A stretch of DNA of 35,829 nt from a virus. The stretch lies in IMG/VR virus record IMGVR_UViG_3300042341_000205, positions 1 to 35,829 of that record. One strand, 5' to 3'. The translations under genes and the position numbers were made by a program. The notes under the pieces were generated by a model. The model saw nothing but the letters and a program-made list of their open reading frames with translations. It searched no databases and was not told where the DNA came from. Shown here in pieces: positions 1,011 through 35,829 of this stretch. Each line of letters opens with the position of its first letter. Position 1 is the first letter of the stretch.

Positions 1011-4000
1011 ATGGCAATAAGTAATCTATTAACGGGCAGGGTAAGGGTTGTAAGCCCGAAAAATGTAACATCTGACAGGTATCAATTCTTGGATTTATCT
1101 CAAGCAGAGCCGAATTTAGGTGTTCCTAACTTTTCTGCATCACTATTAACAAATCCTGCTATTGTAGTTTCGGATGACCAGGGTAATAGAGGATTTGTAA
1201 GAAGTTTAGATTTAGATAGAGTAACTGGTGCATTCACTGGTTCATTTACCGGTTCATTTACTGGTTCTTATTTCGGAGATGGTAGAGATATATTTAATTT
1301 ACCCGCGGCAACTTTTATAGCAAGTGGTTCGGCAACGGCATCTTTTAAACAAGATAATTTAGTAATTAATACAAATACTAGAGTTCAGGGTGACCTTTAT
1401 GTAGATGATACAATTTATGCGGAAACTATAATTGTAAGTTATATATCATCTTCAGTAATCTATTCTTCTGGTTCAAATATTTTTGGTGACAAGTATGATG
1501 ATAGGCAAGAATTTACTGGTTCTGTATTAGTTAGCTCATCGATTGTTGTAAATAATATAACAGCATCTCAATCAATTAGTAGTTCGTTTACAGGTTCTTT
1601 CTTTGGAGATGGTAGAGATATATTTAACTTACCTCAAGCTACAAGATTATCAACTGGTTCAATAACGGCATCGGTATCTCCTGAATTTGGATTTAGAGTA
1701 CAATCTATAATAAGTGGCTCTGAATTTACTGGTAGTGTTAGAATAACTGGTAGTATATCAGCATCTTTATTTAGAGGTGATGGTAGTGGTTTATTTAATC
1801 TACCTGCATTAACGGCAACATTAATAACTAGTGGGTCTGCAACCGCATCAATCGCACCAAATACTGGATTGGTTGTAAATACATTTTCAACATTTCAGTT
1901 TGGAGTATCGGCATCTATGTTTAGTGGTAGTGGTAGGGGCTTATTTGATATCCCTCGTTCTGCTATAACTGAAGATGCTCCTAGAATAGCTAGTGGTTCT
2001 ACTACTGCTTCAATTGCTCCTAATACTGGATTTGTTGTTAATACATTTTCAACGTTTCAATTTCCTGTTTCGGCATCGATGTTTACTGGTAGTGGTGCTG
2101 GGTTATTTGATATTCCTCGTTCTGCTATAACTGAAGATGCAACTTTAATATCTAGTGGAAGTGTAACTGCATCGGTATCTCCTAATTTTGGATTTAGAGT
2201 TGAATCTTCATTAAGTGGTTCTACATTTACTGGAAGTTTATTTGTAACTGGAAATATAGTAATACCATCTGGTTCTGGCTTTTTTAGTGGTAGTGGTGAA
2301 GGATTATTTAATATTCCACTATCTGCACTTAATATTGAGTCGTTGGTATCAAGTAGAATTGCTAGTGGAAGTGTAACTGCTTCTGTATCTCCTAATTTTG
2401 GATTTGTAGTAGTTTCTGTTGCTAGTGGTTCTCAATTTACTGGTTCACTTTTTATAACGGGTAGTGGTGTTGAATTATCATCTGGGTCATTTAGTGGTAG
2501 TGGTGCTAGGTTATTTAATATACCTAAAACAGCAATTTCCGATTTAGATACATCGTTAATATTTTCTGGTTCATATAGTGCATCTATTAGTCCTGATTTT
2601 GGATTTAGAGTTAATACTCGTTCAACTATTAGTGGTAGTTTTGTTGTATCATCATCTGCTGAAATATTTCCAACTGCATCAATAAATAATGTTTTTAATG
2701 TAACAAATAATTTAGCTGCATCATATGTGTTTACTGGTGGGGCTGTAGGTGATAATCCTACATTAACTTTAGTAAGAGGTGTAACCTATACATTTAATTT
2801 AAATGCATCAGGACATCCTTTTTATATTAAAACAGCAAATGTTACTGGGCCGGGAAGTACATATAATACAGGCGTAACTAATAATGGGGATGATGTTGGT
2901 ATAATAACATTTACACCTGCAGCAGGTTCACCTGATACACTTTATTATAATTGTCAATTCCATTCTGTAATGGCCGGGCAAATTAATATTGTAGATGCAA
3001 TATTATTACCAAATAGAATTTTATTTGAAGGAAATACTGCAATTAGTGGTGGTTTATATGTAAGAGATTATGTAAGAGCAAGAGAATTTACTGGTTCGTT
3101 TAGTGGCTCATTTATACAAGGTGATGGTGGTGGATTGTTCAATATTCCTCGTTCTGCTTTTACTGGAGATGCATTTAGAATAGCATCTGGTTCTGTAACA
3201 GCATCAGTATCTCCTAACTTTGGATTTAGAGTAGAAACATCAGCAACTGGTTCGGCATTTGGTTCTCAATTTACGGGTTCAATTGATGTTAGCGGAAGTG
3301 TAAAAGCATTTGCGGTTAGCGCATCCTTTTTCACAGGTTCATTTACTGGTGATGGTAGTGGATTAAGAAATGTACCAGCGGATATATCTACAAAAATAGC
3401 AAGTGGTTCTGTAACTGCGTCTGTTAATCCAAATTATGAAGGATTTAGAGTAGTATCTGCAGAATTTGGTTCGCAGTTTACCGGTTCTTTATTTGTAACT
3501 GGTGGTAATATTGAAGCTAGAAGTGGTTCTGCTTTTAGTGGTAGTGGTAGATTATTATTTGATATACCACAATCTGCATTATCATTTGAATTATCTAGAA
3601 TATCTAGTGGTAGTGTAACCGCATCAGTATCGCCTAATTTTGGATTTGTAGTAGTATCGCCAACCATTGGTTCTCAATTTACTGGTAGTTTAAAAATATC
3701 TGGATCTGTATCTATTATATCTGGCTCATCTTTTAGTGGTAGTGGTAGAAATTTATTTGATATCCCAGCCGCAGCAATATCTGATTTAGATGCATCACGA
3801 ATCTTTAGTGGTTCGGTAACTGCATCAGTTTCACCTAATTTTGGATTTCTTGTAACATCTGTTATTAGTGGTTCTATATTTAGCGGTAGTTTAAAAGTAA
3901 GTGGTAGTTCATTATTTAGAATGGGTGTATCAGCATCCGTATTTAGTGGTAGTGGTGCTGGTTTAACCGATATACCATTTTCAGCACTATCTCAAGAATT

Positions 4001-7000
4001 ATTTAGAATCGCAAGTGGAAGTGTAACGGCATCGGCATTGCCTGATAGAGGTTTTATTGTAGAATCTGCAGCAAATGGTTCACGAATTACTGGTAGTGTT
4101 GCAATTACTGGAAGTTTAAGAGTAACTACAACATCTGGTTCATTAATATTGGATTCATCATCTGCATATTATGGTGAGGGTACTTATTTAAGAAATATCC
4201 CTAGAAATGCTCTTAGTGAAGATGCATTAATATCAACTGAAATCAAATCAGGATCGGTAACCGCATCAGTATCTCCTAACTTTGGATTCATAGTAAAATC
4301 AGCAGAAAGTGGTTCTCAATTTACTGGTAGTGTAAATATAACCGGTAGTGTGCTTGTAAGGAGTGGTTCATTTATTATTGGGGATGGTAGATTCCTTAAT
4401 AATATTACATTAGCTAATTTAGCAATAGATTCAACAAAAATATTTAGTGGAAGTGCAACCGCATCAATATCACCAACTGAAGGATTTGAAGTAAATACTC
4501 ATTCTAGATTTGATGGTAGTTTTATTGTATCATCATCTGCAAGAAATACCCCTAGTTATGATATAGATACAGTAATTATTGTAACAAATGAAGGTAGTGG
4601 TCTTTATAATATTAGTAACGGATTAATAAGTGGTTCAAACCCAACTTTAACTTTAGTAAGAGGTGTAGATTACACATTTAACATAAATGCAAGTGGCCAC
4701 CCATTTTTGATAAAAACAGTACAATCTACTGGTACTGGAGATATATATAATAATGGTGTAACAAATAATGGGGATGATAATGGTATAATATCATTCACCC
4801 CACCATCTGGTTCTCCTGATTTATTATATTATAATTGCCAATTACACTCATCAATGGCAGGTCCTATTAATATTGTTAATTCGATAGTAATACCTGCTGA
4901 AATAAAATTAATTGGAGAAACAAAAGTAATTGGTAATGTTACCGCTTCAATGTATAGTGGTAGTGGTAGGGGCTTATTTGATATCCCTCGTTCTGCTATA
5001 ACTGAAGATTCAGTTAGAATAGCTAGTGGAAGCGTAACTGCATCAGTATCTCCTAATAATGGATTTATTGTTGAATCATTTCAAAGTGGTTCATCATTTA
5101 GTGGTAGTATTTTAATAGATTCATCATCATTTATATACGCTGTAGGAACTTACTTAAGACAAATTCCTAGAGCAGCATTAACGGAAGATGCATTAATATC
5201 AGCAGAAATTAAATCGGGTTCTGTAACTGCATCGGTATCCCCTAACTTTGGATTTAGAGTTATTACTCCGTTTACATCTTCATTTGGTGAGGCTGGAATA
5301 TTTACGGCATCAATTGCATCACAATTTACTGGGTCTATATCAGTAAGTGGTAGTGTTTATATTAACGATAATAGTGGCGGATTATTTATAGAATCATCTT
5401 CATTTATATATGCGGAAGGTACTCATTTAAGAAATATACCTCGTTCAGCATTAACAGAAGATGCATTAATATCTACTGAAATTAAAAGTGGTTCTGTAAC
5501 AGCATCTGTAACACCTGATGAAGGATTTAAAGTTATTACTGATAGAACTGGTTCTCAATTAGGTTCTCAATTCACTGGTTCAATTGAAGTTAGTGGAAGT
5601 ATTAGAGCAACTAATTTCTTTTTTGGTGATGGTAGATTTATAACAAACGTAGTAGCAGCAGCATCTCCATTGATAGCAAGTGGTTCTGCAACAGCTTCTG
5701 TAACGAGTGGTGATACATTTGTGGTAACAACGGGAGCAACTGGTTCTGGTCTTAATTATCAAATTGGTACTCGTATAACTGGTAGTGTTGATATTAGTGG
5801 AAGTTTACAATCTCAATTCTTTATTGGTGATGGTAGATATATTACAAACGTTGTAGCAGCAGCTGCACCATTTATAGCAAGTGGTTCGGCAACGGCATCG
5901 GTAGCAAGTGGTGATACATTCATAGTAACAACTGGAGCAACTGGTTCAGCTATTGGTTCTAGATTTACGGGTTCAATTGATGTTAGTGGTAGTATCAGAG
6001 CATTTTCATTTAGTGGAGATGGTTCTCAATTAACTAATGTACAGGCATCGGCAGCACCTTTGATATCAAGTGGTTCGGCAACGGCATCTGTACAAAGTGG
6101 AAGACAATTTATTGTTAATACTCTTGGTACATTTAGTAGTGTAGGTTCTAATTCAGGTTCTTATTATGGTTCTGTATTTACTGGGTCTGTAATTATTAGT
6201 GGTTCAATATCATCATCTCGTTATGAAGGAGATGGTGGTGGATTATTCAATATCCCAGCATCGGCATTAGAAGATTTACAATTAGATAGAATTATTTCTG
6301 GATCTGGTAGAGCAATAGTAGACCCAAATAAATTTGATGTAAACGTTCCGATAACCGCATCTCGTTATGATGGTGATGGTAGTGGTTTATTTAATATACC
6401 TGCAAACGCATTAGAGGATTTACAATTAGATAGAATTAAATCAGGTTCAGTTCAGGCAGTAATATCGCCAGACAAAGGATTGCAAATTGGAACTAGAACA
6501 TTTGTGTCTGGTAACTTAAGTGTTACTGGTGGATTGTTTGTGACTGGTGGAAATGTTGTAGTAGAAAGTGGCTCAGCATATTATGGCGATGGTAGTGGAT
6601 TAACAAATATTAGTTTAGCAAATATATCATTTGAAACATTTATATTAAAGAGTGGTTCATTTACAGCATCAATATCGCCTAATAATGGATTCGTAGTAAA
6701 CGCATCATCATCTTTTTATGGTGATATGTATGTTGATAAAAATTTAAGAGCAAATAGTATTACTGGAAGTAATTATATTTTCTCTCCATTAATTAGTGGT
6801 TCATTCTTAGGTACATATAATTTCAAAGGAGTAGGACCAACCGCATCTGCAGAATATGATATTTTAAGATACGATGAGAATAGAGGATATTTTGTACCAC
6901 AACCTGAAACAACATTAACGGAAACTGTATCATTTAGTAATGTAAGTGATTTAACAATTGTGCACAACTTAGGAATTTTATATCCTATGGTTCAGGTGTA

Positions 7001-10000
7001 CGCAACTGGTTCTGAAGACCAAATCCTACCTGGTACTGTTAAATCAATTGATGAAGATACTATTCAAATTAAATTTGCTGGATTAACTTCTGGACACGTT
7101 GTAATTGGAAGCGGTGGTTCGTTAATTAATGGTACAATAACTGGTGATAGAGTATTTGGAAATGTACTATCTTCATCATATGCAGTTAGAGCTGGTATCG
7201 CTGAAAGTATTGTTGGATTTAATTCAGCATCATTGGCAGCATTGGGTGATTTGGAAAATTTTGTAAGAAATAACCAAACATCTTCTATGTCTGTATTTAG
7301 AGCAGTAAGTTCTTCTTACGCATTAACTGCATCATATGCATTAAATGCAGGAGCAGGTGGTGGTACTGAATTATTTGTTTATTACACAAGCTCATTAGCA
7401 AAATCACAAACTGCAAAAATTAACTTTACTGGTAGTGGTGTAAGCGTTACACCATCTGGTTCAGATGGGGTATTGGTAACGATATTGGGTGGTGGGGGCG
7501 CTGGTGGTGGTATTGGTGATTTACTTAGTTCACAAACTTCTTCAATGTTAGTTGGAACTGCATCTTTAGCATTCACCGCTTCATACGCTCTTTACGCTTT
7601 AAATGCGGAAGGTGTGAATACAGCATCATTCTTACAAGTAAACAAAGATAGTAACATTAATGCAAACTTAACTATTAGTGGTAGTTTGGGTGTTAGTGGT
7701 AGTATGTTATTAAATTCATTACCAACGGGTTCATCTGAGAATGTTGTTATTTGGAATGATATAACAAAAAAATTAGAAAGAAGAAATATAGCAGCTGCAG
7801 TTGGTTCATCTGGAACTGGTGGTACATCTGGATTTGATGGAACTGCTGGTACATCTGGCACATCGGGAACTTCTGGTTCATCGGGAACATCTGGCACATC
7901 AGGAACTTCTGGTACATCCGGCTCAAATGGTTCATCTGGTTCTTCTGGTACAACAGGAACATCGGGAACTTCTGGAAGTAGTGGTACGGCTGGTACATCT
8001 GGAAGTAGTGGTACAAGCGGCACTTCTGGAACATCTGGTACATCGGGAACTTCTGGAAGTAGTGGTTCGTCTGGTACATCAGGAACTTCTGGAACTTCTG
8101 GAACTAGTGGTATAGATGGAACTTCGGGTACTTCAGGAACTTCTGGAACATCAGGAACTTCTGGTTCATCGGGAACATCTGGAACATCTGGAACATCGGG
8201 TACATCGGGTTCATCAGGAACATCTGGAACTTCTGGAAGTAGTGGTTCGTCTGGTTCATCTGGAAGTAGTGGTACGACTGGTTCAGCTGGTACATCAGGT
8301 TCATCTGGCACATCAGGAACTTCAGGAACTTCTGGTACAAGCGGTACTTCGGGAACTTCTGGAAGTAGTGGTACATCGGGTACAACTGGTTCTGAAGGTA
8401 CATCGGGAACTTCTGGAACATCAGGAACTTCTGGTTCAACTGGTACGGCAGGTACATCAGGAACTTCTGGTTCATCGGGCTCAACTGGTTCATCTGGAAC
8501 TGCTGGTTCATCCGGAACTGCTGGTTCATCTGGTAGTGGAGGTTCATCAGGAACTTCTGGTAGTGCTGGTAGTGGAGGTTCGGCAGGTTCATCTGGTAGT
8601 GGAGGTTCATCAGGAACTTCTGGTACATCAGGAACTTCTGGTTCTGCTGGAGAAGCAGGTACATCAGGAACTTCTGGAACATCGGGAACTTCTGGTAGTG
8701 ATGGTACGAATGGTACATCTGGTTCAACGGGTTCATCTGGGTCATCTGGTACAAGCGGTACAACTGGTTCGGGTGGTACATCTGGAACTTCTGGAACATC
8801 GGGAACTGATGGTACATCTGGTTCATCTGGCACATCGGGAACAAGCGGCACATCGGGAACAAGCGGTACATCAGGAACTTCTGGTACATCGGGAAGTAGT
8901 GGTACAAGCGGAAGTAGTGGTACAAGCGGTACTTCGGGAACTTCTGGTACAACGGGTTCATCAGGAACGTCTGGTACCTCGGGAACTTCTGGAAGTGATG
9001 GTAGTAGTGGTACAAGTAGTACATCGGGAACTTCTGGCACATCGGGAACATCGGGAACTTCTGGCACATCGGGAACTTCTGGAGAAGATGGAACTTCGGG
9101 AACGGATGGTTCGTCAGGCTCCGCTGGCTCATCAGGTACAACTGGTACATCGGGTTCAGCAGGTACATCTGGTTCAAAGGGAACTGATGGAACTTCGGGA
9201 ACATCTGGTACTGAAGGTTCTGCTGGTTCATCTGGCTCATCGGGAACTTCTGGTACGGATGGTTCAACTGGTACAGCTGGTTCATCGGGTTCGTCTGGCA
9301 CAAGCGGTACAACTGGTTCAGCTGGTACATCTGCAATAGATGGGACTAGTGGAACTTCTGGTCAAAATGGAACTTCTGGTACGAATGGTTCAACGGGAAC
9401 TGCTGGTTCATCGGGAACGTCTGGCACTAGTGGTACAAATGGTTCTGAAGGTACATCCGGTACAACCGGTTCTTCTGGTATAGATGGTACATCTGGCACA
9501 AATGGTAGTAGTGGAACTGATGGTAGTAGTGGAACTGATGGTTCGACTGGTACTGCTGGTTCATCTGGTTCTTCTGGTACAAATGGTTCTGAAGGTACAT
9601 CGGGTACAACAGGTTCTTCTGGTATAGATGGAACTTCGGGTACAAACGGTAGTAGTGGAACTGATGGTTCTTCGGGAACCGATGGTTCAACTGGTACGGC
9701 TGGTACGTCTGGAACTGATGGTTCAACTGGGTCTGCTGGTACATCTGGCACATCTGGTTTAGATGGTACATTCTTTGGTTCATCAGGAACGTCTGGAACT
9801 TCTGGAACTAATGGTACATCGGGAACTAATGGCACAACAGGAACTGCTGGTTCATCGGGAACTTCTGGTGAAAGTGGTACGAGCGGATTAAACGGAACGT
9901 TCTTTGGAAGTAATGGAACTTCAGGAACTTCTGGACAAAATGGTACATCGGGAGAAGCTGGTACATCGGGAACTGATGGTTCAACAGGAACTGGAGGTTC

Positions 10001-11459
10001 ATCGGGAACTTCTGGTACATCTGGTACAAGTGGTTTAGATGGAACATTCTTTGGTTCATCTGGAACTTCTGGTGAAAGTGGTACGAGCGGATTCGATGGT
10101 ACGAGTGGATTAGATGGAACTTCTGGAAGTAATGGAACATCGGGTTCGTCTGGTTCTTCTGGTTTAGATGGAACGTTCTTTGGAACTAATGGAACATCAG
10201 GAACTTCTGGACAAAATGGTACAAATGGTACATCAGGAACAACAGGTACATCAGGCACATCAGGAACTTCTGGTACATCTGGTACATCTGGTTTAGATGG
10301 AACTTTCTTTGGAACTAATGGAACATCAGGAACTTCTGGAACATCAGGAACTTCTGGAACATCAGGAACTTCTGGCACATCAGGAACTTCTGGTTCATCC
10401 GGATTGAATGGTACATTCTTTGGTTCTTCTGGAACATCGGGAACTTCAGGAACTTCTGGTACGAATGGTACAACTGGTACGGCTGGAACGGCTGGAACGT
10501 CTGGGTCATCTGGAACATCTGGATTTGATGGAACTTATTTTGGTAGTAGTGGTACATCTGGTGTAAGTGGTACAACAGGAACTGCTGGGTCTTCAGGAAC
10601 TTCTGGTACAAGTGGTACAAGTGGTAATGGAACTTCTGGTTCATCTGGTAGTGGTGGTACATCTGGTTTAAATGGTACATTCTTTGGTAGTAGCGGTACA
10701 AGTGGAGCATTAGGTTCTACGGGAGAATCAGGTACATCGGGAACTTCTGGTACAACTCCTCCGAATTTCACTTCTGGAACGTCTGGAAGTGGTGGTAGTG
10801 GTGGTACTTCTGGTTTGGATGGAACTTTCTTTGGAAGTAGTGGTACAACTGGAACTGGTGGTAGTGCTGGTACGTCTGGTACATCATTCTATGGGGTAAC
10901 TTCGGGAACTTCAGGTACATCTCCTGCAGGATTTACATCTGGAACTTCTGGAACTGCATCAATTAGTACATCTGGAACATCTGGATTCGCATCTTTAAGT
11001 GGAACTACTGATAACGGCGTTCTTACTTTAGAAGGTTCATCTCCAAATGTAAGAGTTGAAAGCAATTTTACATTTGATGGTACTAGTTTATCTGTAACTG
11101 GAAATATAGTATCTTCTACATATATTACATCAACAACATTTAGAGAAACTTATAATGATTTAGGAACTGGTGGTAGTGTAAATTTAGATTTATCAACAGC
11201 AAACAATTTTAGAAGACAATTTAATAGTTCACCAACAATAACATTTACTAACCCACCTGCATCAAACGCATTTGGATTTACTTTAGTAACTGTAAACGCT
11301 GGAGCATATGCTCCGACATGGCCTGCTAATATTGATTGGGTTAATGGACCAAATGCACCAGTCCTAACAGGATCTGGTGGTGTGGATGTATTAGTATTCT
11401 ACACATTTAATGGTGGTACTACATATTATGGATTTGTAGGCGGTAAGAATTTTAATTAA
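1011..11459 (+). CDS. Giant tail fibre/adhesin with beta modules, two cupredoxin-like domains and a collagen-like tract
   Basis: This 3,482-residue protein is probably a trimeric or bundled fibre. Residues ~75-1920 hold about 23 degenerate modules of roughly 60-90 residues built on a theme of SGS-V-TASVSP-NFGF, then GSQFTGSL-VTGS, then GDG/GSG-x-LFNIP. Two cupredoxin-like domains interrupt them near residues 580-661 and 1207-1292. Residues ~1920-2260 include a phage beta domain (motif TIVHNLGILYPMVQVYATG) and SSYALTASYALNA repeats. Residues 2265-3325 are almost entirely Gly-X-Y triplets rich in Thr and Ser. The C-terminal ~155 residues form a separate domain with TWPANIDWVNGPNAPVLTG and a VLVFYTFNGGTTYYGFVGG end, a pattern I recall from phage fibre tips. 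The start has a weak GGAA upstream and two promoter-like motifs. A virion adhesin role is inferred. There is no enzymatic signature, and no S74 chaperone as in the second giant. Confidence 0.85.
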   Translation: MAISNLLTGRVRVVSPKNVTSDRYQFLDLSQAEPNLGVPNFSASLLTNPAIVVSDDQGNRGFVRSLDLDRVTGAFTGSFTGSFTGSYFGDGRDIFNLPAATFIASGSATASFKQDNLVINTNTRVQGDLYVDDTIYAETIIVSYISSSVIYSSGSNIFGDKYDDRQEFTGSVLVSSSIVVNNITASQSISSSFTGSFFGDGRDIFNLPQATRLSTGSITASVSPEFGFRVQSIISGSEFTGSVRITGSISASLFRGDGSGLFNLPALTATLITSGSATASIAPNTGLVVNTFSTFQFGVSASMFSGSGRGLFDIPRSAITEDAPRIASGSTTASIAPNTGFVVNTFSTFQFPVSASMFTGSGAGLFDIPRSAITEDATLISSGSVTASVSPNFGFRVESSLSGSTFTGSLFVTGNIVIPSGSGFFSGSGEGLFNIPLSALNIESLVSSRIASGSVTASVSPNFGFVVVSVASGSQFTGSLFITGSGVELSSGSFSGSGARLFNIPKTAISDLDTSLIFSGSYSASISPDFGFRVNTRSTISGSFVVSSSAEIFPTASINNVFNVTNNLAASYVFTGGAVGDNPTLTLVRGVTYTFNLNASGHPFYIKTANVTGPGSTYNTGVTNNGDDVGIITFTPAAGSPDTLYYNCQFHSVMAGQINIVDAILLPNRILFEGNTAISGGLYVRDYVRAREFTGSFSGSFIQGDGGGLFNIPRSAFTGDAFRIASGSVTASVSPNFGFRVETSATGSAFGSQFTGSIDVSGSVKAFAVSASFFTGSFTGDGSGLRNVPADISTKIASGSVTASVNPNYEGFRVVSAEFGSQFTGSLFVTGGNIEARSGSAFSGSGRLLFDIPQSALSFELSRISSGSVTASVSPNFGFVVVSPTIGSQFTGSLKISGSVSIISGSSFSGSGRNLFDIPAAAISDLDASRIFSGSVTASVSPNFGFLVTSVISGSIFSGSLKVSGSSLFRMGVSASVFSGSGAGLTDIPFSALSQELFRIASGSVTASALPDRGFIVESAANGSRITGSVAITGSLRVTTTSGSLILDSSSAYYGEGTYLRNIPRNALSEDALISTEIKSGSVTASVSPNFGFIVKSAESGSQFTGSVNITGSVLVRSGSFIIGDGRFLNNITLANLAIDSTKIFSGSATASISPTEGFEVNTHSRFDGSFIVSSSARNTPSYDIDTVIIVTNEGSGLYNISNGLISGSNPTLTLVRGVDYTFNINASGHPFLIKTVQSTGTGDIYNNGVTNNGDDNGIISFTPPSGSPDLLYYNCQLHSSMAGPINIVNSIVIPAEIKLIGETKVIGNVTASMYSGSGRGLFDIPRSAITEDSVRIASGSVTASVSPNNGFIVESFQSGSSFSGSILIDSSSFIYAVGTYLRQIPRAALTEDALISAEIKSGSVTASVSPNFGFRVITPFTSSFGEAGIFTASIASQFTGSISVSGSVYINDNSGGLFIESSSFIYAEGTHLRNIPRSALTEDALISTEIKSGSVTASVTPDEGFKVITDRTGSQLGSQFTGSIEVSGSIRATNFFFGDGRFITNVVAAASPLIASGSATASVTSGDTFVVTTGATGSGLNYQIGTRITGSVDISGSLQSQFFIGDGRYITNVVAAAAPFIASGSATASVASGDTFIVTTGATGSAIGSRFTGSIDVSGSIRAFSFSGDGSQLTNVQASAAPLISSGSATASVQSGRQFIVNTLGTFSSVGSNSGSYYGSVFTGSVIISGSISSSRYEGDGGGLFNIPASALEDLQLDRIISGSGRAIVDPNKFDVNVPITASRYDGDGSGLFNIPANALEDLQLDRIKSGSVQAVISPDKGLQIGTRTFVSGNLSVTGGLFVTGGNVVVESGSAYYGDGSGLTNISLANISFETFILKSGSFTASISPNNGFVVNASSSFYGDMYVDKNLRANSITGSNYIFSPLISGSFLGTYNFKGVGPTASAEYDILRYDENRGYFVPQPETTLTETVSFSNVSDLTIVHNLGILYPMVQVYATGSEDQILPGTVKSIDEDTIQIKFAGLTSGHVVIGSGGSLINGTITGDRVFGNVLSSSYAVRAGIAESIVGFNSASLAALGDLENFVRNNQTSSMSVFRAVSSSYALTASYALNAGAGGGTELFVYYTSSLAKSQTAKINFTGSGVSVTPSGSDGVLVTILGGGGAGGGIGDLLSSQTSSMLVGTASLAFTASYALYALNAEGVNTASFLQVNKDSNINANLTISGSLGVSGSMLLNSLPTGSSENVVIWNDITKKLERRNIAAAVGSSGTGGTSGFDGTAGTSGTSGTSGSSGTSGTSGTSGTSGSNGSSGSSGTTGTSGTSGSSGTAGTSGSSGTSGTSGTSGTSGTSGSSGSSGTSGTSGTSGTSGIDGTSGTSGTSGTSGTSGSSGTSGTSGTSGTSGSSGTSGTSGSSGSSGSSGSSGTTGSAGTSGSSGTSGTSGTSGTSGTSGTSGSSGTSGTTGSEGTSGTSGTSGTSGSTGTAGTSGTSGSSGSTGSSGTAGSSGTAGSSGSGGSSGTSGSAGSGGSAGSSGSGGSSGTSGTSGTSGSAGEAGTSGTSGTSGTSGSDGTNGTSGSTGSSGSSGTSGTTGSGGTSGTSGTSGTDGTSGSSGTSGTSGTSGTSGTSGTSGTSGSSGTSGSSGTSGTSGTSGTTGSSGTSGTSGTSGSDGSSGTSSTSGTSGTSGTSGTSGTSGTSGEDGTSGTDGSSGSAGSSGTTGTSGSAGTSGSKGTDGTSGTSGTEGSAGSSGSSGTSGTDGSTGTAGSSGSSGTSGTTGSAGTSAIDGTSGTSGQNGTSGTNGSTGTAGSSGTSGTSGTNGSEGTSGTTGSSGIDGTSGTNGSSGTDGSSGTDGSTGTAGSSGSSGTNGSEGTSGTTGSSGIDGTSGTNGSSGTDGSSGTDGSTGTAGTSGTDGSTGSAGTSGTSGLDGTFFGSSGTSGTSGTNGTSGTNGTTGTAGSSGTSGESGTSGLNGTFFGSNGTSGTSGQNGTSGEAGTSGTDGSTGTGGSSGTSGTSGTSGLDGTFFGSSGTSGESGTSGFDGTSGLDGTSGSNGTSGSSGSSGLDGTFFGTNGTSGTSGQNGTNGTSGTTGTSGTSGTSGTSGTSGLDGTFFGTNGTSGTSGTSGTSGTSGTSGTSGTSGSSGLNGTFFGSSGTSGTSGTSGTNGTTGTAGTAGTSGSSGTSGFDGTYFGSSGTSGVSGTTGTAGSSGTSGTSGTSGNGTSGSSGSGGTSGLNGTFFGSSGTSGALGSTGESGTSGTSGTTPPNFTSGTSGSGGSGGTSGLDGTFFGSSGTTGTGGSAGTSGTSFYGVTSGTSGTSPAGFTSGTSGTASISTSGTSGFASLSGTTDNGVLTLEGSSPNVRVESNFTFDGTSLSVTGNIVSSTYITSTTFRETYNDLGTGGSVNLDLSTANNFRRQFNSSPTITFTNPPASNAFGFTLVTVNAGAYAPTWPANIDWVNGPNAPVLTGSGGVDVLVFYTFNGGTTYYGFVGGKNFN
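2749..2994 (+). other. Cupredoxin-like domain 1 inside the giant fibre
   Basis: Residues ~580-661 of the 3,482-residue protein read as a small Greek-key domain: NPTLTLVRG, then YTFNLNASGHPF, then a TGVTNNGDD loop, then ITFTP, then LYYNCQFHSVMAGQI. His602, Cys648, His651 and Met654 sit as His...Cys-x2-His-x2-Met, the ligand order and spacing of amicyanin-type blue copper proteins. Copper binding itself is inferred. Confidence 0.7.
4629..4886 (+). other. Cupredoxin-like domain 2 inside the giant fibre
   Basis: This is a second copy at residues ~1207-1292 with NPTLTLVRG, NASGHPFLIKT, NNGDDNGIISFTP and LYYNCQLHSSMAGPI. The putative ligands are His1230, Cys1276, His1279 and Met1282. The His-to-Cys distance is 46 residues in both copies. 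Each copy follows a module that begins IFSGS and ends with VSSSA, so module and domain were duplicated together. Confidence 0.7.
7803..10985 (+). repeat. Collagen-like Gly-X-Y tract, ~1,060 residues, with GTFFG interruptions
   Basis: The frame encodes Gly every third residue, mostly as GTS, GSS, GTA, GTD and GTN triplets with no proline. Nine interruptions of the type GLDGTFFGSSG (variants GLNGTFFGSN, GFDGTYFGSS) fall in its last third. The DNA consists of imperfect 9-base units such as GGAACTTCT and GGTACATCA, is visibly richer in G+C than its surroundings, and keeps long open frames on the other strand as an artefact. The tract is a likely site of length change by recombination. Confidence 0.9.
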
Positions 11460-11475
11460 TATTATATTTAAAGTT

Positions 11476-12381
11476 ATGGGAATATTTAGAAGATTAGTAT
11501 CACAAGATGGTTCGCAGGAATATCCATTTGTTTTTAAAATAACAACAACTACGGCTAATACTGTATTTACAACTCCATTAGTTGATTTTGGTGGAATTAC
11601 TCCATCTTTAACAATTGGTTGGGGTGATGGAAGTGCAAATTCACCTATAATAACTGCAAGTAATTCTGTAGATAGAGTACATACATATGTAAGTGCTGGA
11701 ACTTATATAATTACTATAAGTGGATTTATGCCTGGGTTTGCTGTAAATAATAATGCTGGAATTAGAACTCTTATTACTGAATTAGTACAATGGGGTACGG
11801 TTGGTTTAAGAACTATAAACTTTTATGGTTGTACAAATCTAACAGCAATACCTGGTAGTACATCTTTAAGTGGTGTTGGTGGATATACTGGTTTATCCGA
11901 AGTACTTAATTTTACTAACTTTATGAATGGTACTAGAATAACAACAATACCAGAAGATATTTTTGATTTTTCTCCAAATGTAACATCATTTAATAGTGCA
12001 TTTTCATCAATATCAACAATAACAACAGTACCAACTGGATTATTTGATAATGTACCATTGGTAACATCTTTTGCATCTTGTTTCTTTGCATGTTCTGGAT
12101 TAACATCAGTACCATCTACACTATTTGATTTAAACGTAAATGTTACTAGTTTTTCTGGTACATTTAGAAATTGTAGAGCATTAACAAATGTATTACAATT
12201 TACAAATAATACAAATGTAACAACATTTACTAATTTATATAATATGAGTTCTACAACAAATGCATTGACAGGAACTGCACCTACATTGTGGTTAAGAACA
12301 CCAACACCAGCCGGAACTGATGCATTCAACAATTGTACTGGTTTATCAAATTTCGCATCAATACCTGTAAACTTTAAATAA
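11476..12381 (+). CDS. PKD-like plus BspA/DUF285-type leucine-rich-repeat protein
   Basis: This 301-residue protein has two parts. Residues ~45-83 match a PKD fold: WGDGS, then RVHTYVSAGTYIITISG. Residues ~110-300 are repeats of the BspA-like/DUF285 type, with F-x-NC-x-x-LT-x-IP spacing and a recurring P-x-x-LFD-x-x-x-x-VTSF core (LFDNVPLVTSFASCF, LFDLNVNVTSFSGTF). Such repeats are known in surface proteins that bind host or environmental polymers. There is no signal peptide or membrane anchor, so a virion location is likely. It lies 16 bases after the giant fibre gene and 1 base before the next, so it should be cotranscribed with both. A receptor-binding or fibre-tip role is inferred. An imperfect promoter motif (ATATTTAAA, 11464-11472) sits too close to the ATG to be convincing. 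Confidence 0.75.
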   Translation: MGIFRRLVSQDGSQEYPFVFKITTTTANTVFTTPLVDFGGITPSLTIGWGDGSANSPIITASNSVDRVHTYVSAGTYIITISGFMPGFAVNNNAGIRTLITELVQWGTVGLRTINFYGCTNLTAIPGSTSLSGVGGYTGLSEVLNFTNFMNGTRITTIPEDIFDFSPNVTSFNSAFSSISTITTVPTGLFDNVPLVTSFASCFFACSGLTSVPSTLFDLNVNVTSFSGTFRNCRALTNVLQFTNNTNVTTFTNLYNMSSTTNALTGTAPTLWLRTPTPAGTDAFNNCTGLSNFASIPVNFK

Positions 12382-12881: not shown

Positions 12882-13160
12882 ATGATTATACACAGTCCTA
12901 TATTTTCTGGCTCAATTACTCAAGCCTCATCTGCTTACGCAAATTTAAGTGGTTCATTCACAGGCTCTTTAACTGGTTCATTTAAAGGAGAAATTGATGT
13001 GCAACAAGCATCATTTGGTAATTTGAATGTAACTAATAAATTATCTGTTAGTGGTTCTATAATTATGACGGGTTCAATGAATCTGACAGCTGGTGGGTAT
13101 TTGGTAGATGGTGTAAGTGTATTGGATTCGGCAATAGCTTTTGCAATAGCATTAGGATAA
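12882..13160 (+). CDS. Mini-fibre protein of the giant-fibre module family
   Basis: This 92-residue protein is built from the same units as the giant fibres: SGSFTGSLTGSF, then NKLSVSGSIIMTGSMNL, then a hydrophobic end (LDSAIAFAIALG). It may be an accessory piece of the fibre, a remnant of a shortened fibre gene, or a structural cap. The start is ATG, directly after an inverted repeat, with no Shine-Dalgarno site. It is 14 bases upstream of the next gene and probably cotranscribed with it. I do not know its specific function. Confidence 0.65.
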   Translation: MIIHSPIFSGSITQASSAYANLSGSFTGSLTGSFKGEIDVQQASFGNLNVTNKLSVSGSIIMTGSMNLTAGGYLVDGVSVLDSAIAFAIALG

Positions 13161-13174
13161 AAAAATAAAAAGAA

Positions 13175-13507
13175 ATGGCAAACGCATTTAAAAATAGTAT
13201 TACGGGTTCTGTTGGAACGAATGGTGTGAAAGTATATGAAACACCTGCCGCAACATCAACAACAGTTATAGGAGTTAGTATAGCAAACTCTGTATCACAA
13301 AATATTTCAGTAAGTGTAATGATGAGAGATACATCAGCTAACAAAGCTGTTTATTTAGTTAAAGATGCATTAGTAATGCCTGGTAGCTCAAATGTATTAG
13401 TTGGTGGAGAACAAAAGTTGGTATTAGAAGCAACTGATTTTATTTCGGTGACATCATCGTTAGCAAATTCGGCAGATGTAATTGTTTCGGTTTTAGAAAT
13501 AACATAA
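13175..13507 (+). CDS. Small beta-rich structural protein, paralogue of the ends of the 305-residue protein
   Basis: This 110-residue protein has alternating beta pattern throughout (VKVYETPAATSTTVIGVSIAN, then QNISVSVMMRD, then EQKLVLEATDFISVTSS, then ADVIVSVLE). Its two halves match the N- and C-terminal parts of the 305-residue protein at 26-943, without that protein's helical insertion. The 21 bases from the leader through ATGGCA are identical in the two genes. Both members of the family precede a giant fibre gene, here by 11 bases. A fibre-associated or decoration role is inferred. It is not otherwise recognised. Confidence 0.7.
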   Translation: MANAFKNSITGSVGTNGVKVYETPAATSTTVIGVSIANSVSQNISVSVMMRDTSANKAVYLVKDALVMPGSSNVLVGGEQKLVLEATDFISVTSSLANSADVIVSVLEIT

Positions 13508-22279: not shown

Positions 22280-22678
22280 ATGGCATTAACATACGAGTGG
22301 AAAATAACTCAAATTAAAAAAACAACCAATGATAGTGTAGATAACGCTATAATTGGTACTAGATGGGAAGTTAAAGGAATAGATGAAAATGGAAACGATG
22401 GTTTATTTACTGGAGCAACTCCGTTTACATTAGACCAAATTAATCCTGATAATTTTGTACCATACAATGAATTGACAGAAGAAATTGTATTGGATTGGAT
22501 TAAAGGATATGTAAGTGGCTCAAATAGAGCAACTAACTATTGGGACCATATATCAGATAGAATCAACACACAAATAAAAGAAAAAACATCTATTATTAGT
22601 AGCGTTGAGGCAGTTAATTTACCTTGGTCACCTACATCAGGTTCATCGATAGAACCTACTGGTTCTTTAGTGGTTTAA
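22280..22678 (+). CDS. Conserved phage protein, DUF7936-like pattern
   Basis: This 132-residue protein begins MALTYEWKITQIKKT, continues I-x-x-TRWEVKGIDENGNDG-x-FTGATPF, then NFVPYNELTEEIVLDWIK, and ends with ISSVEAVNLPW. I recall this order from small proteins of many T4-like aquatic phages filed under DUF7936, whose function is unknown. The number is from memory and should be checked. A terminator follows immediately, so the gene closes a transcription unit before the sheath. Confidence 0.7.
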   Translation: MALTYEWKITQIKKTTNDSVDNAIIGTRWEVKGIDENGNDGLFTGATPFTLDQINPDNFVPYNELTEEIVLDWIKGYVSGSNRATNYWDHISDRINTQIKEKTSIISSVEAVNLPWSPTSGSSIEPTGSLVV

Positions 22679-22816: not shown

Positions 22817-25135
22817 ATGGCAGAAAGAATCGTATCACCCGGCGTATTCACAAGAGAAAATGACCTTTCCTTCCTAGCGCAAGGAGTAGGCGAGATTGGA
22901 GCAGCATTTATAGGACCTTTTAAGCAAGGACCTGCATTTGTTCCAACTATTGTTAGAACGCAATCAGAATTCGAAGATATCTTCGGAACTCCTGATGGAA
23001 CTTATTATACTGAATATGCAGTACAAAACTATTTAAGAGAAGCTGGAAGTGCTACCATCGTAAGAGTTGGTGGTATTGGTGGTTATACTCAAAATTTACC
23101 TGTTGGTATATTTGCATCTGGTGGTTTGGTTGGACAAAAACTTATTGGAGTTTTATATTCAACTGAAACTGGTGATGAGGCTGTAGGATTCAGAACACCA
23201 ACTGTAACAGGTGCAGGACCTGGATTTGCATCTGGTTCATTTGTAGTATCTTCTTCATTTGGATTTGTATCAGCATCTATTTTAGAAACTGCTACTAACG
23301 ATGTAGTAGATACATTTGGTTCTTCTCCATTCGGAGCTAAAACAGCATATACTTACGCTTATTTTAAAAATATAGCAACAACTAATTACACTAACGCTGC
23401 GATGGGGCTTGAAGGTGGTACATTTGTATCAGCATCGGCATTACCTCCACAAATTTATAGTGATATTAGTTCTGCAGAAACTCCATATGTTAAATCTCAA
23501 AAAGATAATAACAATGTTAGATATGATTTATTTAAGTTTGTAACTTTAGGACATGGTACTCCATATAATACTAAATTCAAAATTGGTATTTCAAACGTAA
23601 AGGCAGCTGGTGAAGATGGAGCAACTGATTATTCTGTATTCACTGTAACTGTAAGAGGATATAGTGATACTGATAAGAGAAAGAGTGTTGTAGAAACATT
23701 TAATAATGTAAACTTAGACCCTGCTTCTCCTAACTATATAGCTAGAAGAATTGGTGATAGATGGAATACGATTGATAACAATGGTAAGATAACTGAAAAT
23801 GGAGATTACTCAAACAAATCAAAATATGTAAGAGTAGTAATAGCTGAGGCAGGTTCATTCCCGATTTCATCAGCACCATTTGGACATGGAGCATATACAA
23901 ACCCAATAGTAACAAATGTAGCAGATACAACTAAAGTACCTGCGGTAGTTTACCAAACTGGTTCGGCAAATAACACATCATCATCTCCTATATATTATTC
24001 TGGATTTGATTTTGAGACTGTTGGTGCATCCGATGATAACAAACAATACTTAAAACCAATTCCTGTTGGAGCATTGGTTGGAGCAAACGTTGATTTCGCA
24101 TTTGATTCTCAATTATCATATGTAATGACAGGTTCGGCAGCAACTGATATGGTTAAAAGACAATTTTTATTAGGATTCCAATATGGATTTGATGGTAACG
24201 CACCAACTGTAAAAATTAACTTAGGTACATCTATAACTGGAGCAAATACGCAAGGATTTAACTGTTCAAATAACTCAACTAATGGTTCAATTGCATATAC
24301 AAAAGCAATTAACGCTGTATCAAATGCAGATGAATACGATATTAACTTAGTTGTAACTCCTGGTATCATTCGTTCTTTACACCCATCTATTACTACAAAA
24401 GTAATTGATATGGTTGAAGATAGACAAGATTGTTTCTACATCGCTGATTTTGTGGCAGCAACTGCAACAATTACTGAAGCAACCGAAGAAGCAAATTCAG
24501 TAGATTCTAACTACGTTGGAACTTACTACCCTTGGGTTAAGACAGTTGATACTAATAGTAATAAATTAATGAGTGTACCTCCATCAGTATTGATGCCGGC
24601 TGTATTCGCTGCAAACGATAGATTGGCAGCTGAATGGTTCGCACCTGCTGGTTTGAATAGAGGTGGTATTAGTGGAGCAGTTTCAGTATTGAATAGATTA
24701 ACACATTCTGAAAGAGATACTCTATATGAGAATAAAGTAAACCCAATCGCAGCATTCCCTGGACAAGGTATTGTAGCATTCGGACAGAAGACATTGCAAG
24801 ATAAGGCATCAGCTTTAGATAGAATCAATGTTAGAAGATTACTTATCACTCTTAAGAAGTTCATCGCTTCAACATCTCGTTTCTTAGTGTTCGAACAAAA
24901 TACTTCTACAACTCGTCAAAGATTCTTAAACACTGTGAACCCTTACTTAGAGGCAGTTCAACAAAGACAAGGTTTATACGCATTTAGAGTTGTAATGGAT
25001 GAATCAAACAATACACCTGATGTAATTGATAGAAACATATTAGCAGGACAAATTTTCTTACAACCGGCTAAGACAGCGGAATTTATCGTAATAGATTTCA
25101 ACATCTTACCAACTGGAGCAAGTTTTAACGCATAA
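22817..25135 (+). CDS. Contractile tail sheath protein (T4 gp18-like)
   Basis: This 772-residue protein, somewhat longer than T4 gp18, begins with the family's RIVSPGVFTRENDLSF and IGAAFIGPFKQGPAF. It ends with the conserved sheath C-terminal core: FIASTSRFLVFEQN, then RFLNTVNPYLEAVQQRQGLYAFRVVMDE, then ILAGQIFLQPAKTAEFIVIDF. The middle section (residues ~120-430) is the variable outer part. Subunits form a cylinder around the tube and contract to drive it into the host. The tube gene follows after 52 bases, the usual order in myoviruses. The start is ATG after an A-rich leader. The identification is firm from the N- and C-terminal motifs. Confidence 0.96.
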   Translation: MAERIVSPGVFTRENDLSFLAQGVGEIGAAFIGPFKQGPAFVPTIVRTQSEFEDIFGTPDGTYYTEYAVQNYLREAGSATIVRVGGIGGYTQNLPVGIFASGGLVGQKLIGVLYSTETGDEAVGFRTPTVTGAGPGFASGSFVVSSSFGFVSASILETATNDVVDTFGSSPFGAKTAYTYAYFKNIATTNYTNAAMGLEGGTFVSASALPPQIYSDISSAETPYVKSQKDNNNVRYDLFKFVTLGHGTPYNTKFKIGISNVKAAGEDGATDYSVFTVTVRGYSDTDKRKSVVETFNNVNLDPASPNYIARRIGDRWNTIDNNGKITENGDYSNKSKYVRVVIAEAGSFPISSAPFGHGAYTNPIVTNVADTTKVPAVVYQTGSANNTSSSPIYYSGFDFETVGASDDNKQYLKPIPVGALVGANVDFAFDSQLSYVMTGSAATDMVKRQFLLGFQYGFDGNAPTVKINLGTSITGANTQGFNCSNNSTNGSIAYTKAINAVSNADEYDINLVVTPGIIRSLHPSITTKVIDMVEDRQDCFYIADFVAATATITEATEEANSVDSNYVGTYYPWVKTVDTNSNKLMSVPPSVLMPAVFAANDRLAAEWFAPAGLNRGGISGAVSVLNRLTHSERDTLYENKVNPIAAFPGQGIVAFGQKTLQDKASALDRINVRRLLITLKKFIASTSRFLVFEQNTSTTRQRFLNTVNPYLEAVQQRQGLYAFRVVMDESNNTPDVIDRNILAGQIFLQPAKTAEFIVIDFNILPTGASFNA

Positions 25136-35446: not shown

Positions 35447-35829
35447 GGGGATGCCATGGACTTGATTGCAATGAGAATGGTAGTACCACACGTAGACAGA
35501 AGTGCTAGATGTCTTTAAATCTGTACAAAACAATAACTGACGAAATGTCAACTATGACCTTTGATTCTATGATGGAATTCATTGGGGCTTCTGAGTACGC
35601 ATACGCTGCTTAGTTCATTCCGCATCACTCGTGGAACATTTAAATAGAAGTGAACAAAACGGAGCTCTACCTATCGGCTCTTAAAAACTGATAGGTTGGT
35701 GGAAAGCTGTACTAACCATACGGCCCCAATTATTTTGGAAAGTGAATAAGATTAAACTTTACCTAAACGTGTGATATGCTGGTATTATGATTACTTTGTA
35801 AGACAGGGGTTCGATTCCCCTCATCTCCA
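35447..35829 (+). ncRNA. ssrA: Phage-encoded transfer-messenger RNA (tmRNA)
   Basis: The RNA is 383 nt up to the window edge. The acceptor stem GGGGATG (35447-35453) pairs with CATCTCC (35822-35828), with a G3-U70 pair and discriminator A, the alanine identity signals. The T arm is AGGGG-TTCGATT-CCCCT (35805-35821). P2 is CACACGT (35487-35493) with ACGTGTG (35767-35773). Pseudoknot 1 combines 35494-35498/35510-35514 with 35502-35509/35520-35526. A second combines GAGC/GCTC (35662-35665/35677-35680) with ACCTATC/GATAGGT (35669-35675/35690-35696). A third uses 35706-35710/35720-35724. The tag frame ends GASEYAYAA then TAG (35611-35613). The resume codon is probably GAC at 35539, 12 nt after pseudoknot 1, giving 24 residues. 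CCA, if encoded, lies past the edge. Its job would be to rescue stalled ribosomes and tag the nascent protein for proteolysis. Confidence 0.96.

Follow-up and report, generated by a model that had tools for sequence, protein, structure and literature searches.

The window, meaning the whole 35.8-kb stretch of DNA analysed here, is a virus record with a contractile-tail cluster in which a 301-amino-acid (aa) protein is encoded among fibre genes (Table 1). The first-pass annotation gave the coordinates and reading frame of this gene correctly, and was also right to place it in a virion gene cluster. PHROGs profiles identify sheath (phrog_23, 1.9e-69), tube and tape measure in the same cluster, and a T4 baseplate-like protein is encoded in the window with a match slightly below the cut-off. 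The gene starts 16 nt past the 3482-aa fibre, and a 149-aa chaperone, the strongest clue at this locus and one overlooked by the first-pass annotation, begins 1 nt after it. A location between two fibre genes, as first described, is accurate in that giant fibres lie on both sides, but downstream the chaperone and two ORFs of 92 and 110 aa intervene. The second giant fibre is closed by an intramolecular chaperone domain (Peptidase_S74). A position directly 3' of a fibre gene is that of gp38-type tip adhesins in the T4 superfamily.

Table 1. Features of the fibre region and of the 301-aa protein
Feature	Coordinates	Strand	Evidence or remark
Giant upstream fibre, 3482 aa, GTS/SGT collagen-like repeats	1011..11459	+	ORF list
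C-terminal domain of the giant fibre	about 10977-11456	+	lies upstream of the adhesin in all relatives with sufficient sequence
PKD + leucine-rich-repeat (LRR) protein, 301 aa	11476..12381	+	ORF, AlphaFold2 (AF2), homologues
N-terminal arm, residues 1-16	11476..11523	+	residues 1-12 pLDDT <50; may serve as a mount
PKD-like beta domain, residues 17-106	11524..11793	+	AF2 model; invariant W49-G50-D51
LRR solenoid, residues 107-245	11794..12210	+	AF2 model; LRR matches in PDB by sequence and by fold
C-terminal LRR cap, residues 246-301	12211..12378	+	most conserved part; matches the C-terminal end of phrog_9915 (E 1.4e-22)
Tail-fibre assembly chaperone (Phage_tail_APC), 149 aa	12383..12832	+	PF16778 E 3.2e-15, phrog_4912 6.3e-16
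Small fibre-like protein, 92 aa, kept in cassette	12882..13160	+	
110-aa protein, kept in cassette	13175..13507	+	phrog_1276, phrog_26609 (both 'unknown function')
Second giant fibre, 2648 aa	13519..21465	+	Peptidase_S74 near C-terminal end, PF13884 E 2.4e-19

Other features of the window deserve brief mention. Both giant fibres contain long GTS/SGT collagen-like repeats, and long antisense ORFs over them look like shadows of these repeats. The sheath (22817-25135, 772 aa) aligns end to end with a PHROG profile of just 496 positions, and therefore probably carries a large insertion. A phage-encoded tmRNA lies at 35447-35829 (ARAGORN; Rfam RF00023, 77.1 bits vs 47). Its tag has 24 residues and ends in YAYAA, and the match stops exactly at the final base of the record.

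AlphaFold2, run on 32 aligned members, models the 301-aa protein as a beta domain followed by an LRR solenoid (mean pLDDT 91.9, pTM 0.87). The repeat fold anticipated from the letters alone is thus confidently predicted. In the N-terminal arm, M1 and I3 are invariant and R5 and L7 nearly so. The beta domain that follows has strands between residues 18 and 105 of the model and a W49-G50-D51 core shared by 32/32 aligned members; a WGDG-type motif in a beta-sandwich is the mark of a PKD domain. Matches to the LRR part took up the fold searches with the whole protein, and a PKD fold for the N-terminal domain is put forward tentatively.

Several lines of evidence define the repeat region. Short LRR strands begin at residues 113, 145, 171, 198, 225, 250 and 279 of the model, a spacing of 25-32 residues, and a plain lag test of hydrophobic periodicity over residues 107-301 peaks at 27 residues, a signal that is weak alone (271/5000 shuffles reach the peak). 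PDB LRR proteins superpose with Z 15.0-15.2 and rmsd 2.5-3.7 over 188-208 residues (VIA-align, five top rows), while Foldseek gives low TM-scores against PDB chains (TMq no higher than 0.40 among the 50 matches listed). A profile match to PDB 5a5c reaches 7.2e-10. Together, the model and the PDB matches place the region in the leucine-rich repeat superfamily as a solenoid. The matches comprise variable lymphocyte receptors of jawless vertebrates, repebodies, LRRTM2 and Toll; they show a common kind of solenoid, not a common function. The best family match, phrog_9915, is labelled 'unknown function'.

Domain names are harder to assign than folds. At E<=1 the window protein matches neither PKD (PF00801 / PF18911) nor LRR_5 (PF13306) nor DUF285 (PF03382); its sole Pfam matches at this threshold, LRR_4 (0.12) and CT_C_D (0.2), are both below cut-off. 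A PamR profile match (1.1e-5 over residues 25-82) is far under its cut-off as well. Among the 32 aligned members, PF00801 is matched by 19 (best E 5e-4), LRR_5 by 4 (best 0.0058) and DUF285 by 4 (best 0.072). The evidence for the PKD assignment is accordingly modest, and because the window protein falls under the PKD, LRR_5 and DUF285 cut-offs, the BspA label depends on relatives. Of the initial description as PKD plus BspA-like repeats, the PKD-like domain and the LRR solenoid stand in the AF2 model, and 'BspA/DUF285' survives as a family resemblance only. The protein carries no secretion signal, as first claimed: the highest 15-residue Kyte-Doolittle mean in its first 40 residues is 0.77, for a stretch that begins with residue 18 and lies in strand one of the PKD-like domain. 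Nor is it glycine-rich in the manner of gp38, with no glycine run of >=3 in its 301 aa.

Scans of viral contigs recovered homologues down to about 50% identity. Individual scans gave 82, 195 and 413 stretches that encode such a protein, and the best 80 of the 82 represent 79 distinct loci. The sample comprises the best 80 of 145, 174, 195, 413, and 597-or-more relatives, so distant clades are under-sampled. Complete ORFs for this predicted adhesin occur at 385 of 482 loci, which include loci fetched through neighbouring genes, and yield 72 distinct proteins of 290-311 aa. Only ATG starts and lengths of 270-400 aa were accepted; the 97 loci without such an ORF were left out, making other lengths invisible. 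Because contigs recur, we count by distinct protein.

The surroundings of the gene are fixed. The chaperone lies directly 3' of the adhesin in 72/72 distinct relatives, with a gap of 1-12 nt in 70; in the other 2 the first chaperone ATG overlaps, and we interpret the resulting '-62 nt gap' as an ATG further upstream in the frame of the chaperone. In all 68 distinct relatives with >650 nt of upstream sequence, the giant fibre's C-terminal domain lies on that side. Conversely, loci anchored on the chaperone or on the 110-aa gene carry the adhesin in 152/160 cases, and the other 8 reach the contig edge first (two scans, the best 80 of 145 and the best 80 of 174, with contigs common to both). Fibre, adhesin and chaperone are a co-conserved three-gene cassette. 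The homologues, their conserved length and the purifying selection described below show that the ORF is not a chance one.

The chaperone itself is a clear member of its family, matching PF16778 at 56.2 bits against a cut-off of 26.6. Its AF2 model (pLDDT 92.0, pTM 0.68) has a beta N-part and a helical C-part. Foldseek's only sensible match among those listed is 2kz6 (E 7.5e-3), and neither Mu Tfa nor Pam3 gp25 is among the matches listed in its fold searches. Precedents for the gene order exist in earlier reports. In Pam3 a fibre gene (gp24) is followed by that of its chaperone (gp25), which was undetected in virions (PMC9608196); in V22 the chaperone gene gp27 lies directly downstream of the fibre gene gp26 (PMC7289586); and A5 likewise has a fibre gene and then a chaperone (PMC10579305). 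The locus resembles both T-even/S16 gp38 and Pam3 gp24-gp25, where a small separate protein or fibre follows a fibre gene or is paired with a chaperone (PMC9608196, PMC7289586). The protein studied here differs in its LRRs, in place of which gp38 and gp24 have glycine-rich parts. The chaperone's client may be the giant fibre only.

A family profile searched in nine records found matches in six, and revealed the LRR module in other phage proteins. It is C-terminal, as here, in gp35 of Klebsiella phage ST16-OXA48phi5.4 (best 2.7e-21), in gp231 of Escherichia phage ukendt (3.0e-22), an annotated tail protein, and in gp353 of Bacillus phage G (best 3.1e-10). These proteins differ in what stands before the module. 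In gp35 it lies behind Tail_P2_I (E 3.6e-38) and Big_2, with LRR_5/DUF285 and both other domains above cut-off; in gp231 it lies behind RCC1 and Big_2, both above cut-off, with the LRR part below; gp353 is a 2055-aa protein whose role is not annotated. In contrast, the window encodes the module in a separate 301-aa gene, fronted by a PKD-like domain.

Two further proteins combine both parts in one chain. ORF63 of phage KZY1-k141_1027853, annotated BspA family, matches the family profile at 2.8e-18 on its PKD part and 0.0036 on its LRR part, but differs in having DUF285 well above cut-off (8e-16) and in lying near a terminase gene. The KZY1 gene with PKD and DUF285 (L083:231-1397) is two small ORFs from that terminase gene, and the side seen holds no fibre gene. 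Closer in layout is a gene of a Bacteroidetes metagenome-assembled genome (MAG; L164:7965-9080, family profile 1.9e-30), in which PKD, LRR and C-terminal cap follow a gene with tail-fibre PHROG matches and an Mtd_N match under cut-off, at a prophage-like locus. It differs in identity (about 27%), in length (371 aa) and in its extra repeats; by eye, no obvious chaperone ORF was noticed beside it. The C-terminal IPxx(W/Y)K motif of the clade recurs in 3 of the 5 non-clade proteins compared; in gp35 an LPGNW stands five residues short of the C-terminus, whereas KZY1 ORF63 is without the motif.

Matches at the level of predicted structure extend further. The best-covered among predicted viral structures are A0A6J5LGN5 of an uncultured Caudovirales phage (PKD domain-containing, 384 aa; TMq 0.69) and A0A8S5V2Z7 of a Siphoviridae sp. 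(327 aa, uncharacterised; TMq 0.68), both alike in predicted fold along most of their chain but longer, at 24% and 20% identity. Against a phage collection, tblastn matched parts of the protein in 59 records and over 80% of it in none, and the C-terminal cap alone matched only phage G (2 records). At E<=1 the family profile is unmatched in Synechococcus phage S-SKS1, Microcystis phage Mel-JY01 and Flavobacterium phage immuto; a PKD protein of S-SKS1 listed as a fold match was set aside as evidence because of that blank. On these sequence comparisons the LRR module is at home in phages, in at least two annotated tail proteins and on several types of N-terminal mounting.

Databases already contain phage proteins annotated BspA-family or PKD, and a report on Vibrio phage pir03 lists a BspA-family ORF in a table (PMC7765460). 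We found no paper on a phage PKD-LRR adhesin, or on such a protein with a tested function, in a search that left most subscription journals outside. Two candidate sources were rejected: in PMC11823257 PKD stands for pyocin knob domain, and PMC12750041 is not relevant to a phage PKD-LRR adhesin. By appearance the protein belongs to an unremarkable, if so far unstudied, type of phage adhesin, to which the fixed fibre-adhesin-chaperone cassette is the useful addition.

The proposal that the adhesin was borrowed from cellular surface proteins drew no support. A genome scan returned 3 relatives among 40 pattern matches, all distant (26-27% identity), and the best of them, the Bacteroidetes MAG gene beside a tail-fibre-like gene, also occurs at 100% in an IMG/VR viral contig. 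This was a single shallow scan with two degenerate patterns derived from the window's own clade, and it may have passed over remote LRR proteins of cells.

Start sites offer a clue to the host. An SD-like site precedes 2/18 starts in the window, compared with 4/41 in Flavobacterium phage immuto, 22/39 in Microcystis phage Mel-JY01 and 12/15 in phage G, and the A fraction of leaders is 0.60, 0.50, 0.41 and 0.37, respectively (mechanical ORF starts for the window; annotated + strand starts, one stretch each, for the other phages). The resemblance to the Flavobacterium phage makes a Bacteroidota host plausible, and is what suggests one here. A cyanobacterial host was considered and rejected: the window's start sites are unlike those of Mel-JY01, and the Photo_RC family (PsbA/PsbD) occurs in 0/10 long relatives, possibly fragments.

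The adhesin is under purifying selection, with dN/dS of about 0.27-0.28 (Nei-Gojobori, pairs with dS 0.1-1.5). With a median of 0.279, the adhesin falls between the 110-aa gene (0.224) and the chaperone (0.318). Across the window and 22 contigs with a sheath, the adhesin (0.268) is close to the sheath (0.277) in dN/dS, and its amino-acid distance is larger (0.284 against 0.209); 23 contigs were paired by hand, one was dropped when no sheath ORF was found, and some of the 22 are near-identical. Within the protein, the N-terminal arm is loosest (0.488) and the cap tightest (0.241). Rates around the LRR strands are 0.341 versus 0.246 in the remainder of residues 107-301, a difference given without a significance test and one that a binding face might show. 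As a side observation, the DUF7936 gene (22280-22678) is 45-54% identical to the window's copy in 10/10 contig pairs, below the conservation of the adhesin.

The first-pass annotation had suggested a possible host-range element, to be checked by looking for rapid replacement of the locus among close relatives. Such replacement is not seen in the sampled clade, where 152/160 loci keep the gene at a sheath-like dN/dS. Distances of the PKD part, LRR, cap, chaperone, fibre end and 110-aa protein are correlated (r 0.61-0.87; r 0.58 with sheath distances), and because the six rise together there is no sign of single-module swaps within the clade. A simple reading of 'never exchanged' fails, since 2 of 10 contigs have a cassette more diverged from the window than their sheath: the sheath is 74-76% identical, the adhesin 55%, the chaperone 54-64% and the fibre end 46-55%. 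Either joint exchange or faster drift of the cassette would fit. At a deeper level the gene comes and goes, as it was not found by family profile search in the three phages nearest by tail sheath. The adhesin profile did give matches in other records of its search (6/9); the chaperone profile was also unmatched in those three phages, a set without a positive control.

Combining these observations, we propose, at a probability of roughly 0.6, that a contractile-tailed phage, probably of a Bacteroidota host, encodes the 301-aa protein as a separate fibre-tip adhesin, matured with the downstream chaperone. The 3482-aa collagen-like fibre would be made and would presumably trimerise. The chaperone would help the fibre end, the adhesin or both to mature. 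The N-terminal arm and PKD-like domain might then fix the adhesin to the fibre's C-terminal domain, leaving the LRR solenoid, closed by its cap, to project outward and bind a host surface molecule. A virion adhesin, as initially suggested, is supported though not proved by the tail cluster, the adjoining chaperone and the C-terminal LRR module of two annotated tail proteins. From the sequence evidence a role in host recognition is likely; presence in the virion and receptor binding we infer.

The evolutionary data weigh on the other side. Few parts of a phage tend to evolve as fast as the one that binds the receptor, and the sheath-like dN/dS and near-constant length count against such a role. 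They make a fair rival of a connecting or accessory fibre component, a structural joint or decoration whose LRR binds another fibre subunit and which is not the receptor-binding tip. The most conserved part being the cap, and the presence of the gene in every sampled locus whose sequence reaches its place, also favour a connector. What argues against it is that the LRR-cap module forms the extreme C-terminus of an annotated tail protein in two other phages, and receptor-binding parts are usually located at the extreme C-terminus of tail proteins. We regard a connector as unlikely, though worth keeping in view.

Less probable still is an accessory adhesin that sticks to polysaccharide, mucus or environmental particles, like the Ig/PKD proteins of gut phages, and is not a host-specific binder. 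Slow evolution would suit it, and in one report about 46% (6/13) of the adherent gut phage groups with Ig domains, for which Bacteroidota hosts are predicted, have PKD domains (PMC13370021). Nevertheless, constant coupling with chaperone and fibre end points more to a fibre part than to a capsid decoration. A non-virion intracellular protein (regulator or anti-defence), in the tail cluster by chance, would fit the absent signal peptide but is very improbable given its fixed position in the fibre-chaperone cassette, the fusion of the LRR module to tail-protein domains elsewhere and the lack of a PADLOC match at E<=0.01.

A fibre-tip adhesin would have wider implications. Tentatively, and with the odds somewhat against it, the protein may represent a phage receptor-binding class resembling the LRR recognisers of jawless vertebrates: a PKD-mounted LRR solenoid in one chain that has its own gene, caps a giant collagen-like fibre, is matured by an APC chaperone and is common in a clade of uncultured Bacteroidota phages. 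If the proposed role is true, LRR solenoids would join the host-recognition folds of phages, and the fibre-adhesin-chaperone cassette would be a ready co-expression unit. The adhesin also serves as a marker for an uncultured phage group with start-site signals pointing to Bacteroidota hosts.
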